Part shown: in pieces, positions 23,275-26,633 of the stretch
How positions within the stretch are numbered: position 1 is the first letter of the stretch
Layout of the letters: every line of letters begins with the position of its first letter
DNA from: Arthrobacter sp. zg-Y20
GTDB lineage: Bacteria > Actinomycetota > Actinomycetes > Actinomycetales > Micrococcaceae
Direction: 5' to 3'
Assembly: GCF_030142075.1 (NCBI RefSeq)
Contig: NZ_CP126241.1
Location: 868,001-932,000 of the forward strand
Length of the DNA: 64,000 nucleotides
Notes under the pieces: model-generated
Seen by the model: the letters and a program-made list of their open reading frames with translations, nothing else
Database searches by the model: none
Told to the model about the DNA's origin: nothing
Program-made: the position numbers and the translations under genes

Positions 23275-23303
23275 TTGGACTTATCCCAAAGGTCGTGTAG
23301 GCT
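23275..23303 (+). promoter_or_regulatory. Sigma-70 promoter of the first cold-shock gene
   Basis: TTGGAC (23275-23280), 17-nt spacer, TAGGCT (23298-23303). Transcription would start near 23310, about 140 nt before the csp ATG, leaving a long leader. Confidence 0.7.
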
Positions 23304-23309
23304 GAAACG

Positions 23310-23449
23310 CAGTTGTTGTGTTGCGCATTTTGTATTTCAAGCGGCGAAACCAAACGGTCTAGCTGCTTTTCTGTAAAAGCGGTAAAGGAACACCGCGACT
23401 GAAACCTCCCGAAAGTCGGGATGCGTTTCAATGCAGAAGGAATATTAAA
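23310..23449 (+). promoter_or_regulatory. Structured 5' leader of the first cold-shock gene
   Basis: About 140 nt of untranslated leader, homologous to the leader of the second csp gene. Stem 1 pairs AAGCGGC (23339-23345) with GCTGCTT (23362-23368). A small hairpin pairs GCGGT (23379-23383) with ACCGC (23392-23396). Stem 2 (23401-23429) is GAAAC/GTTTC outside CCCGA-AAG-TCGGG. The Shine-Dalgarno AAGGA (23437-23441) lies just 3' of stem 2. A shared 5' block (GTGTTGCGCA near 23318, TCAAGCGGCGAAACC near 23337) is present in both leaders. A cold-responsive RNA switch or stability element is inferred; the conservation between the copies is seen directly. Confidence 0.65.
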
Positions 23450-23653
23450 ATGGCTACAGGTACCGTGAAATGGTTCAACTCCGAAAAGGGCTTCGGCTTC
23501 ATTGAGCCCGACGACGGCAGCGCCGACGTCTTCGCTCACTACTCCGCTATCAACTCCAACGGCTACAAGTCGCTGGACGAGAACCAGAAGGTTAGCTTCG
23601 ACACCGAGCAGGGCCCCAAGGGCCCGCAGGCCTCGAACATCCAGGCCCTCTAA
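23450..23653 (+). CDS. cspA: Cold-shock protein (CspA family), copy 1
   Basis: 67-residue single cold-shock domain that binds single-stranded RNA and DNA and unwinds mRNA structure. It begins [24 protein letters not shown]1 is KGFGFI and RNP2 VFAHY. It ends [10 protein letters not shown]. It differs from copy 2 (26216-26419) at only a handful of positions. AAGGA 8 nt before ATG 23450 is the ribosome site. It is a monocistronic unit with its own promoter, long structured leader and UUCG terminator. Confidence 0.95.
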
Positions 23654-23695
23654 TTTCTTAGAGACTTTGTAACGGCTTCACTGCCGTAACAGCCT

Positions 23696-23725
23696 AAAGC
23701 AGGACGGGTTCGCCCGTCCTGCTTT
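23696..23725 (+). terminator. Intrinsic terminator of the first cold-shock gene
   Basis: AAAGCAGGACGGG-TTCG-CCCGTCCTGCTTT: perfect 13-bp stem closed by a UUCG tetraloop and ending in T's. A weaker hairpin (ACGGC-N6-GCCGT) precedes it. Confidence 0.92.
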
Positions 23726-24192
23726 TGCGTTAACTACGGTCCCGCAGTGCGGGGCGACGCCGCGCTGACTGGTGCTGCAGTGCTACGGGCGGGCTGTCCG
23801 CGACTGGGGTGTGCCGCCATCGGGCTGCCGGCGGGAGCGGTGCACCGGAACCGCGGACCCTTTCCCCGGTGCCCGACGGCGGCACCCTGGTTCCCGTGGG
23901 CCGCAGCGGGATTGTGCAGACGGTGGAGTGGAAACCGCTGATGGCCGCCCTCGGTGTCCACGCGCCGTCACCGGCCAGGACACCCACCTTTCCCGAGCCC
24001 GGAGGTTCTGCTGCCGGGTTGGGTTTTTCCTGACGGTTTTGGTTTCTGCTGCCGGTTTAAACGGGCAGCAGAACTTCAAAGGGTCAGCAGATTTACTAAC
24101 CGGGCGATATTCCAGGCCGGGACTCCGCCCGGGTTCGTTGCCGTCGTCCCGGACACCGGAACCGCGCCCCTTCCCCCGGAGACCGGTACGAC
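23726..24192. other. 467-base gap with a repeat-bearing hairpin and no convincing gene
   Basis: Between the csp1 terminator and the glutaminase stop. A 10-bp inverted repeat TTCTGCTGCC-N10-GGCAGCAGAA occupies 24044-24073, and its left arm is also present as a direct repeat at 24006-24017 (TTCTGCTGCCGG). A plus-strand frame at 23809-24033 (GTG start, 74 codons) contains PDGGTLVPVGRSGIVQTVEWKPL with GC-rich third positions, but it has no ribosome site or recognisable family and may be a gene remnant. The hairpin may help end glutaminase transcription. Confidence 0.4.
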
Positions 24193-26007
24193 TCAGTCCC
24201 GGATCCGCACGGCAGCCTCGCGCAGGTACTGCTCCACCCGCGTGTACGCGTCCTGGGTCAGCGCCTTCCACAGGTTCATGCTCAGCACTGGGTCCTTCGC
24301 GGCCAGTTCTTCAATGGCCTCGGCAGTCAGCACCTTCAGTTTCAGTGGCCCCGCAGCTTTGACCGTAGTTTCCTGCCGCTTGTCCTCACCCATCGCCATT
24401 TCGCCGAAGGTCATTCCGGGGCCCAGCGTTGCCAGCTTCACGCGGCTGCCGTCGGGGCCGGGCATGGACGTGGTGATGTGCCCGGAGACAATGAAGAACA
24501 CTCCGCCAAAACGCTGGCCTACCCGCCGGACCACGTCGCCGTCGTCGAACTCGCGGTCCTCCATCATGTCCTGCAGCATCCGGGCGTCATTCTCGTCCAA
24601 GGGGCTGAGCGCGGGGGAGTCCGCCGGTTCTATGCTGTCCGGCAGCACCAGTTCGGTGCCGTAACCTTCCAGCAGTTTGTTCTCACTCCATTCAATGGCG
24701 GCCGAGCGGGTGGTGAAGGAAGCTGTTTCCCGGCCCAGCTCCTCGAGCGCAGCGGTTACCGAGCCTTCGATGTCCACCAGGGCCAGTTCGCGTCCGTCCC
24801 GGCGCAGCATGTCTTCGGCCTCGGCAATCAGCCGGATGGCGACGTCGGACACCTCGTCTACGCTGCGCAGATCGGCGACCACCAGCTCGACGTCGTCGTT
24901 CAGTTCGCTCAGTGCCCGCACCATGGACTCGGCACCGGCAAAGAGCAGGTCCCCGTTGAGTTCAATCACCTGCACGCGGTGGCCGTGTCCGGCCAGGATC
25001 TCCGCGGCCTCGTCCGTGCGGCGGATGCCGGAGGGGGTGGCCGTGATGTCATACACAGCGCGGATGGCCGAACGGCCGGTGCGTGCAGCACGGACAAAGT
25101 GCAGGCCCAGGTCATGGGACAGCCGCTGGCTGACAGCCACGCCGCGGACGCTGTTGCCGTGGGCGTCCAGGGGCGGGGAGTAGACGGCCAGGCCCACCTG
25201 CCCCGGCAGGACCGCCAGGATGCCGCCGGCCACGCCGGACTTGGCCGGCATCCCCACGCTGCTGATCCAGGAGCCGGCGTCGTCGTACATGCCGCACGTG
25301 GTCATCACCGACAGGACGCGTTCCACCGAGACGAGGTCCAGGACCTCTTCCCCGGAGAGCGGGTGCCGGCCGCTGTTGGCCAGGGTGGCAGCCATCAGGG
25401 CCAGATCGCGGGCGTTCACCATGACCGAGCACTGACGGAAGTAGTCCTTGATGATCGGTGCCGGGTCGGATTCGATGATGCCGAAGGAGCGCAGCAGGTA
25501 GCCCAGGGCGGTGTTGCGGTGACCGGTGCGCAGTTCGGACGTGTAGATGCGCTGGCTTACGGACAGCTCCCGGCCGGCGAAGGCGGAGTATGTGTCCAGG
25601 ATCCGCTTGAAGCGGGTCCGGCCGCCGGAGCCTTTCACCAGCGAAGTGGCGGTGAGGGCGCCGGCATTGATCATGGCGTTGGCCGGCCTGCCGGTTCCTT
25701 CTGCCAGGGAAATTTCGTTGAATGAATCCCCGGAGGGTTCCACGTCCACTTTCTCGTCCACGGCGTCCATGCCCAGGTCCGAAAGGGCCAGACCGTAGGT
25801 GAAGGGCTTGGAAATGGACTGGATGCTGAATTCCTCGCGGGTGTCACCCACTTCGTAGACATAGCCGTCCGCGGTGGCCAGGGCAATCCCGAAGCTGTTC
25901 GGGTTCACCTTGGCCATGGCGGGTATGCCGCTGTACGGGGCGCCGTCCTTCAGCCCGGCCAGTTCAGCGTGGATCCTGCGGAGGTAGTGCTCAATGGGGG
26001 AGTCCAT
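24193..26007 (-). CDS. glsA: Glutaminase A fused to STAS and cyclic-nucleotide-binding domains
   Basis: 604-residue cytoplasmic enzyme converting L-glutamine to L-glutamate and ammonia. Residues 1-310 are a glutaminase of the beta-lactamase-like fold, with the SxxK pair in SIQSISKPF (Ser64, Lys67), INAGAL near 113-118 and a late KSGVAGGILAVLPGQVGL. Residues about 340-450 form a STAS domain (VIELNGDLLFAGAESMVRAL, LVDIEG). Residues about 470-590 form a cyclic-nucleotide-binding-type domain (GGVFFIVSGHITTSMPG, LGPGMTFGEMAMGE). Free-standing GlsA is about 310 residues, so this is a fused, probably allosteric form. ATG 26007 follows TAGGGT by 6 nt, a leaderless pattern. Confidence 0.92.
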   Translation of the reverse strand: MDSPIEHYLRRIHAELAGLKDGAPYSGIPAMAKVNPNSFGIALATADGYVYEVGDTREEFSIQSISKPFTYGLALSDLGMDAVDEKVDVEPSGDSFNEISLAEGTGRPANAMINAGALTATSLVKGSGGRTRFKRILDTYSAFAGRELSVSQRIYTSELRTGHRNTALGYLLRSFGIIESDPAPIIKDYFRQCSVMVNARDLALMAATLANSGRHPLSGEEVLDLVSVERVLSVMTTCGMYDDAGSWISSVGMPAKSGVAGGILAVLPGQVGLAVYSPPLDAHGNSVRGVAVSQRLSHDLGLHFVRAARTGRSAIRAVYDITATPSGIRRTDEAAEILAGHGHRVQVIELNGDLLFAGAESMVRALSELNDDVELVVADLRSVDEVSDVAIRLIAEAEDMLRRDGRELALVDIEGSVTAALEELGRETASFTTRSAAIEWSENKLLEGYGTELVLPDSIEPADSPALSPLDENDARMLQDMMEDREFDDGDVVRRVGQRFGGVFFIVSGHITTSMPGPDGSRVKLATLGPGMTFGEMAMGEDKRQETTVKAAGPLKLKVLTAEAIEELAAKDPVLSMNLWKALTQDAYTRVEQYLREAAVRIRD

Positions 26008-26034
26008 ACTTCCACCCTAGGGGCTTCCGGAGGG

Positions 26035-26063
26035 GTGACTCGGCAGGGGCACCGTTGTATACT
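26035..26063 (+). promoter_or_regulatory. Sigma-70 promoter of the second cold-shock gene
   Basis: GTGACT (26035-26040), 17-nt spacer, TATACT (26058-26063). The start would be near 26070, about 146 nt before the ATG. It lies back-to-back with the glutaminase start (26007, minus strand). Confidence 0.7.
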
Positions 26064-26069
26064 TTTACC

Positions 26070-26215
26070 AGTTGCGGTGTTGCGCAATATGTAAGTTCAA
26101 GCGGCGAAACCCAGATCCAGGGCCAGCCGCTTTTTCTGTAATTTGCCACCACGGACACCGCAGCATGAAACTCCCCGACGGTCGGGGCTGGTTTCGTTTA
26201 GAAGGATGATTAAAA
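26070..26215 (+). promoter_or_regulatory. Structured 5' leader of the second cold-shock gene
   Basis: Homologous to the copy 1 leader. Stem 1 pairs AGCGGC (26100-26105) with GCCGCT (26126-26131), where copy 1 uses a G·U pair. Stem 2 (26167-26195) is GAAAC/GTTTC around CCCCGA-CGG-TCGGGG, one pair longer than copy 1. GCGGTGT near the 5' end can pair with ACACCGC ahead of stem 2, a possible alternative fold. GAAGGA (26201-26206) is the ribosome site. The sequence changes keep pairing intact, which supports a real RNA structure. Confidence 0.65.
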
Positions 26216-26419
26216 ATGGCAACAGGTACCGTGAAATGGTTCAACGCTGAAAAGGGCTTTGGCTTCATCGAACCCGATGATGGCAGCGCCGATGTTTTCG
26301 CCCACTACTCCGCTATTAACGCCAGTGGCTACCGGTCTCTCGAAGAGAACCAGAAGGTTAGCTTCGACACCGAGCAGGGCCCCAAGGGTCCGCAGGCCGT
26401 CAACATCCAGCCTGTCTAA
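26216..26419 (+). CDS. cspA: Cold-shock protein (CspA family), copy 2
   Basis: 67-residue single cold-shock domain, starting [21 protein letters not shown] and ending [11 protein letters not shown]1 KGFGFI and RNP2 VFAHY are intact. It is a close paralogue of the 23450-23653 gene; promoter, leader and terminator are duplicated too, so the whole transcription unit was copied. The glutaminase gene lies between the copies on the opposite strand. GAAGGA lies 9 nt before ATG 26216. Role: RNA chaperone during cold or growth transitions. Confidence 0.95.
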
Positions 26420-26458: not shown

Positions 26459-26490
26459 AAAGCAGGGCGGGAGAAATCCCGCCCTGCTTT
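26459..26490 (+). terminator. Intrinsic terminator of the second cold-shock gene
   Basis: AAAGCAGGGCGGGA-GAAA-TCCCGCCCTGCTTT, a perfect 14-bp stem with GNRA loop followed by TT. The outer arms match the copy 1 terminator while the inner pairs and loop differ compatibly. Confidence 0.92.
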
Positions 26491-26633
26491 TTACGTTCCT
26501 GCACGGTTAAGGGTGCGGATTTTCCTCAGTACTTATCCATCCCGGTCCGGTCAGCCGCACCGGGACCAGCAGTTCCAGCGAGAGCAATCTCACTCCGTGG
26601 GCTGGGCGCCCGGGCCGGAATCGGGGACCATGG

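Follow-up and report, generated by a model that had tools for sequence, protein, structure and literature searches.

How the messenger leader controls cold-shock genes has been worked out in detail in E. coli. In the extract of PMC9947658, the E. coli cspA leader has an open form in the cold and a closed form at 37°C, transcript fragments of 137 and 187 nt fold like the cold form, and CspA binds its own leader. Long leaders of cold-shock protein (csp) genes have also been observed in two actinobacteria, at cg0215 of C. glutamicum, which was called an RNA thermometer, and at DIP0320 of C. diphtheriae; in the extracts of PMC3890552 and PMC5784534 their cspA annotations rest on scores of 60.19 and 64.8 bits against the Rfam family RF01766. 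The stretch analysed here, the window, is 64,000 nt of the Arthrobacter sp. zg-Y20 genome (one contig, 3,526,984 bases) and carries two csp genes, csp1 and csp2, each preceded by a leader. The leaders belong to a family with a covarying helix, P3, which takes in the Shine-Dalgarno (SD) region. With a probability of roughly 0.45, both are copies of one conserved RNA element acting in cis, in which the start of csp translation is set by the choice between P3 and a helix that crosses it, P1.

The locus is like the E. coli cspA thermosensor in its long csp 5' leader, its two predicted conformers exposing or hiding the SD, and its predicted open-like early intermediates (compared with the extract of PMC9947658). 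The architecture of the actinobacterial family is different, however: whereas the closed E. coli form pairs the 5' untranslated region with part of the coding region in that extract, closure here would be by a helix between the middle of the leader and the SD region. With Corynebacterium it shares an actinobacterial csp gene that has both a long leader and an RF01766 score.

Anatomy and distribution of the leaders

Along each leader RNA the order of elements is the 5' arm of P1, stem 1 (H1), the 5' arm of P3, the 3' arm of P1, stem 2 (H2), and the 3' arm of P3 with the SD. Because the arms interleave in this way P1 and P3 cross, so that either only one of them can form at a time or, conceivably, both coexist in a pseudoknot; the nested folding used here makes them exclusive by construction. 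In P3 the tract TTTTCTG, which follows stem 1, can pair with CAGAAGG in the SD region. The features are listed below, R1 being a 35-leader covariance model that has P1 and the inner part of stem 2 as its structure.

23311..23449, + strand: csp1 leader RNA, 139 nt; R1 match over 23311-23453 with 130.5 bits, a score necessarily high for an R1 seed
23312..23322, + strand: csp1 5' arm of P1, GTTGTTGTGTT; pairs with 23389-23399
23340..23367, + strand: csp1 stem 1, AGCGGC x GCTGCT; from sequence and folding
23367..23373, + strand: csp1 5' arm of P3, the anti-SD tract TTTTCTG; pairs with 23434-23440
23389..23399, + strand: csp1 3' arm of P1, AACACCGCGAC; partner of 23312..23322
23400..23430, + strand: csp1 stem 2, TGAAAC/GTTTCA around TCCCGA/TCGGGA; family counts cover five inner pairs
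23434..23441, + strand: csp1 3' arm of P3 including the SD, CAGAAGGA; partner of the TTTTCTG tract
26070..26215, + strand: csp2 leader RNA, 146 nt; R1 match 26070-26218, 127.5 bits (R1 seed)
26071..26081, + strand: csp2 5' arm of P1, GTTGCGGTGTT; predicted pairing
26100..26131, + strand: csp2 stem 1, AGCGGC x GCCGCT, followed by a T tract; from sequence and folding
26132..26138, + strand: csp2 5' arm of P3, the anti-SD tract TTTTCTG; could pair with 26199-26205, P3 being 0.00 in the predicted ensemble
26155..26164, + strand: csp2 3' arm of P1, ACACCGCAGC; predicted pairing
26165..26197, + strand: csp2 stem 2, GAAAC/GTTTC around CCCCGA/TCGGGG; from folding and family counts
26199..26206, + strand: csp2 SD region, TAGAAGGA; from sequence and ensemble prediction

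An earlier note on this DNA, the original prediction, had placed leaders of about 140 nt at both csp genes, and this was confirmed, both standing before genes for 67-residue CspA-type proteins. The shared 5' block (GTTG..GTGTTGCGCA), stem 1, stem 2 and the pairing of the 5' end with ACACCGC were likewise seen in both copies. That possible pairing, P1, was given too short an extent; csp1 allows 10 pairs with one mismatch (GTTGTTGTGTT x AACACCGCGAC), and csp2 at least 9 pairs. Stem 1 is present in both leaders, but the compensation claimed for it is not, AGCGGC being identical and GCTGCT/GCCGCT a one-sided change from G-U to G-C. The inner hairpin of stem 2, said to be one pair longer in copy 2, has six pairs in each copy, and the true double change is at its outermost pair, where T-A of copy 1 is replaced by C-G of copy 2. 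P3 was absent from the prediction. Folding z-scores were -3.88 for the csp1 leader (23311-23452; equalled by none of 200 shuffles) and -3.07 for csp2 (26072-26218; equalled by 1 of 200).

Searches of genomes of the order, Micrococcales, used strict filters, under which weak matches are lost. R1 gave 35 matches in 29 of 297 genomes, 34 of them at a csp gene (29 of the 30 with loci returned, where csp directly adjoins the match, four more by position and one by its retrieved locus). A second model, R2, was built from 46 leaders and matched 73 times, in 65 of 396 genomes, every match having a csp gene at its end, although at two of them (L223 and L232) the gene was judged by the reading frame within a locus of about 0.6 kb. 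A search of the whole phylum matched 5 of 396 genomes, three within the order and two outside it; the latter two matches were weak (E 0.004 and 0.0096) and no csp gene was found there by pattern. These two (L202, L203) and the sole R1 match without a csp gene (L193) were dropped, csp having been sought by pattern only. On these models the family spans the Micrococcales and is specific to csp genes. The conserved structured RNA that had been proposed is therefore borne out by covariance-model matches in other genomes; its description as actinobacterial is broader than these matches, which show it for the Micrococcales.

The leader element very probably begins at the first bases of the transcript, because a TAN3T box is enriched 4-12 nt upstream of it: of 42 non-redundant leaders from the order, 39 have the box against 3.0 expected from shuffles, as do 30 of the 32 not in the R1 seed against 2.1. 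In the window the corresponding promoters are as follows.

23275..23303, + strand: csp1 promoter, TTGGAC (23275-23280), 17 nt, TAGGCT (23298-23303); weak -10 box, recognised by eye and not called by a simple scan
26035..26063, + strand: csp2 promoter, GTGACT, 17 nt, TATACT; called by the simple scan

The end of TAGGCT is separated by 7 nt from the conserved block at 23311, and that of TATACT by 6 nt from 26070. A transcript start near the csp ATG, which would leave the leader untranscribed, is made unlikely by the promoter-like sequence alone.

Evidence for the helices

The alignments were composed as follows. A2 holds 35 leaders, what remained of 89 after removal of redundancy; the 89 were those of 94 that had a TAN3T box, which the other 5 lacked. 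A4 holds 46 matches from 45 chosen loci; A5 holds 88 matches from 89 loci, of which 32 are R1-seed rows and 56 are others, 42 of these lying outside both seeds. R2 and A5 have P1 and stem 2 as their structure, and P3 was never part of any model. Pair counts in A5 lean towards P1 and stem 2, and were therefore also taken from A6, 73 matches aligned with a sequence-only, structure-free model. For the arm-swap tests, in which native pairs of arms were compared with swapped ones, rows were thinned at 80% similarity, leaving 42 of the 88 rows, 32 of the 56 outside the R1 seed, and 18 of these 32 outside both seeds. Thinning removed both window copies, which are absent from the 42.

P3 is the best-supported helix. 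Its native arms gave -13.57 kcal/mol against -10.42 when swapped (n = 42), -14.73 against -11.40 (n = 32) and -13.66 against -10.26 (n = 18), with 0 of 20000 permutations as good in each set. With the SD core taken out, the counts were 1, 0 and 49 of 20000, respectively. Both arms change together in individual leaders, for example GGGTCTG/CAGATCC in L219, AGATCTG/CAGATCT in L221, CAGGAGC/GCTCCTG in L053, TCAAGAGTTG/CGACTCTTGA in L211 and ACCAGATG/CATTTGGT in L228. Arm-swap controls gave (n = 42; n = 32) 11845 and 3910 of 20000 for P1a-P3b, 15732 and 18048 for P3a-P1b, 1310 and 1279 for mid5-P3b, 4449 and 2194 for H1-P3b, and 19722 and 18258 for P1a-H2loop. Stem 2 also covaries, with 95.8% of its cells paired and double changes at all 5 pairs counted in the 88 leaders, an alignment biased towards it, and 94.7% paired with double changes at 4 of 5 pairs in the structure-free alignment.

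P1 is probable. Complementarity is kept, with 86-87% of cells paired over the 88-leader and sequence-only alignments (86.3% in the latter); for the whole structures counted, sliding of the partners left 36-59% and 45-51% paired in the two alignments, respectively. Covariation is weak in this predicted SD-freeing alternative to P3: double changes were found at 3 of 10 pairs in the 88-leader alignment and 2 of 10 in the structure-free one, and one pair varies as C-G, U-G and U-A in the sequence-only alignment. Consensus folding of 35 leaders returned nothing beyond stem 2 and a pairing of the 5' GUUGU with stem 1, by a method that cannot show crossing helices.

Predicted states and competing explanations

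The energy model predicts opposite states for the two copies. At each of 4, 10, 20, 25, 30 and 37°C the csp1 leader is predicted closed, with the SD unpaired at 0.01-0.04 and P3 at 0.94-0.97, and the csp2 leader open, with the SD unpaired at 0.84-0.97 and P1 at 1.08-1.09. With 30 coding bases added csp1 is still closed, and the unpaired value for csp2 falls to 0.48-0.59. A comparison within the genus, for which 27 csp1-type and 29 csp2-type leaders yielded 20 and 23 distinct usable ones, pointed the same way at 37°C: 14 of 20 csp1-type leaders were predicted closed and none open, while 18 of 23 csp2-type leaders were open and none closed.

The order of folding is predicted to favour P1 early. 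In the growing csp1 transcript P1 stands at about 1.0 for lengths of 90-126 nt; at 142 nt, with the SD present, P3 reaches 0.94-0.97. A direct path from P1 to P3 had a barrier of 15.1 kcal/mol at 37°C, 19.3 at 25°C and 23.4 at 10°C. Across 42 leaders at 25°C, P1 exceeded 0.5 in all 42 as its 3' arm was completed, in 38 once stem 2 had followed and in 19 of the full-length leaders; 18 passed from P1 after stem 2 to P3 at full length. Between 37 and 10°C the number of leaders with P1 above 0.5 rose from 16 to 21 and that with P3 above 0.5 fell from 20 to 16, among the 41 in the temperature comparison (one of the 42 was dropped, having no recognised SD).

The simplest account of the leaders is a translational switch, at first open and later able to close. 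P1 would form upon synthesis of its second arm and leave the SD free, and P3 would form only after the SD is made, capturing it and, as judged from predicted duplexes, some of stem 2's outer strand as well. In the cold the early P1 fold would persist, through slow refolding to P3 or by being held open by Csp, and Csp would be made; in the warm csp1 would close. The copy on by default would be csp2, for which an open state is predicted at every temperature, and csp1 would be the one under regulation. Since the predicted states are almost constant over 4-37°C, any cold sensing would need a kinetic mechanism or the help of Csp. The more specific proposal that the whole Micrococcales family is a co-transcriptional kinetic switch, with an open fold of the 5' end arising first, temperature setting how quickly the SD-closing helix takes its place, and two paralogues tuned to opposite equilibria, one off by default and inducible and the other on, is tentative, and we consider it somewhat unlikely to be right in full. 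A covarying SD-closing helix, together with two copies predicted in opposite states in one genome, makes kinetic cold sensing testable.

A number of results weigh against such a switch. The temperature step gets no support from equilibrium folding: each copy keeps nearly the same predicted state from 4 to 37°C, contrary to the cold sensing originally suggested, and the small trend in SD access has the wrong direction, from 0.84 at 4°C to 0.97 at 37°C in csp2 and from 0.01 to 0.04 in csp1. An equilibrium thermometer was also sought over the 41 leaders and not found, mean SD access being 0.40 at 37°C against 0.38 at 10°C. The closed fold of csp1 is the more stable by 4.9 kcal/mol at 37°C and 6.7 at 10°C, so that cold favours it more, and the barriers given above are upper bounds, being those of a direct path. 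P3 exceeded 0.5 in only 7 of 20 csp1-type leaders at 37°C (9 of 20 at 10°C), different pairings therefore hiding the SD in the rest, and in none of the 23 csp2-type leaders. A leader's own P3 partner was the single best in only 3 of 42 cases, with a median rank of 8, because swapped arms too pair with the purine-rich SD. In the arm swap P1 gave a weak result (388, 1593 and 1171 of 20000 for n = 42, 32 and 18) that did not surpass the mid5-P1b control (399 and 493 for n = 42 and 32). This control has bases in common with the P1 arm and was the only one to come near P1's own result. After randomisation of the 5' arm, 24 of 42 leaders still passed the threshold for nascent P1, with a mean of 0.58 against 1.21. 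Finally, the R2 matches under strict filters reached only 65 of the 396 genomes of the order. A strict RNA thermometer, melting or switching at equilibrium, was rejected on the near-flat SD access predicted by the energy model.

Other accounts of the leaders were considered. E. coli Csp proteins are antiterminators, and stem 1 with its U tract might be an intrinsic terminator that Csp or cold allows to be read through into csp. Stem 1 with this tract was terminator-like in 21 of 42 leaders against 7.0 expected from dinucleotide shuffles (the window copies not being among the 42), and the 5' GUUGU paired with the 5' side of stem 1 in the 35-leader consensus fold is a possible antiterminator, although that pairing is without double changes. 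Half of the leaders, however, lack a terminator-like element, csp1 has only four consecutive T, the simple scan did not call stem 1 with its tract in either copy, and the covariation of P3 is left unexplained, so we regard attenuation as unlikely to be the explanation; it may act at stem 1 alongside the translational switch. Slower decay in the cold, with P1 tying up the 5' end and stem 2 shielding the RNA, is a still less probable account. In favour of such a stability element, P1 begins at the probable +1, and of the seven columns that are invariant in the 35-leader alignment five lie in its 5' arm, but the covarying helix over the SD is left unexplained.

The near-insensitivity of the predicted states to temperature would also suit control by protein, in which Csp binds conserved segments, for example GUUGNNGUG or ACACCG, and opens or closes a leader that senses no temperature itself. 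Both segments are strongly conserved, and E. coli CspA binds its own leader (extract of PMC9947658). This autoregulation overlaps with the translational switch, Csp binding here is putative, and we hold it to be improbable as the sole explanation, to about the same degree as a stability element. That there is no regulatory structure, the similarity reflecting shared ancestry and the folds chance, is very hard to sustain; the leaders are homologous and the conservation of P1 alone could be conservation of sequence, but the double changes in stem 2 and the P3 arm-swap results contradict it. A leader peptide was considered separately and is unlikely, the longest open reading frame within the leader ranging from 0 to 46 codons across 42 leaders and the 12 displayed differing in start and sequence.

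Relation to known families and genome context

At gathering thresholds Rfam gave one match in the window, to RF01766 (cspA) at 23361-23725, with 79.5 bits against a cut-off of 78. The csp2 locus scored 52.9 bits, coding region included. Membership of RF01766 was rejected for the leaders, since 23300-23452 and 26060-26218 scanned alone gave no match up to E 5; the RF01766 scores therefore depend on the csp coding region. The cut-off was reached by one of 18 relatives scanned (L038), again with the coding region included. The csp2 leader alone matched RF02883 weakly (18.6 bits, cut-off 40), and leader-only scans found no Rfam family that covers the leader itself, in agreement with the original prediction. 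The Corynebacterium scores fall under the present cut-off of 78 and, by analogy with the window, may come from the coding part; actinobacterial annotations as 'RNA thermometer' merit re-examination. No description of this leader was found in the titles and abstract beginnings of a single open-access library, which cannot exclude one.

Leaders of Streptomyces-type csp genes likewise begin with GUUGC at the 5' end and have a long pairing that resembles P1 (144 of 20000 permutations, n = 15), and three gave weak R1 matches (L113, L103 and L107; E 0.012, 0.088 and 0.66). The test used 34 leaders, of which 15 were kept as non-redundant, some with uncertain anchors. P3 was undetectable in them by arm swap (3964 of 20000). 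On sequence grounds their 5'-end pairing is possibly a distant version of P1. In loci of Streptomyces and relatives (L058-L113) the csp leaders often begin GUUGCAGUU, and the 5' end can pair with, for example, GGGGUAAUCAUCACAGCGAC.

The genes and possible terminators of the locus are as follows.

23450..23653, + strand: csp1, 67-residue CspA-family cold-shock protein; best NCBIfam scores slightly under the curated cut-offs
23696..23726, + strand: possible terminator of csp1, hairpin and T4; read from the sequence, not called by the simple scan
24193-26007, strand opposite to the csp genes: glutaminase A gene, 604 residues, between csp1 and csp2
26216..26419, + strand: csp2, 67-residue CspA-family cold-shock protein
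26460..26494, + strand: possible terminator of csp2, hairpin and T5; read from the sequence, not called by the simple scan

The two Csp proteins are 89% identical across 66 residues. The source genome has five csp-like matches, and a leader of the present kind stands at csp1 and csp2 only, the other three having no R1 match up to E 1. Two such leaders were found in the source genome and in each of the 28 genomes of the same genus searched. In one of these (G009) they lie about 0.6 kb apart (L034:934-1081 and L034:1507-1652) against the usual 2.8 kb or so, and the glutaminase gene therefore cannot sit between them. The C-terminal portion of glutaminase A in the window resembles cyclic-nucleotide-binding regulators. 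In the region of csp2 stem 1 (26101-26123), 22 of 23 bases recur in the same sense within the polyribonucleotide nucleotidyltransferase (pnp) gene of the same genome (L239:544-566, E about 0.002). This match, which is probably due to chance, is also present in 14 of the 28 genomes of the genus and in one of a different genus.

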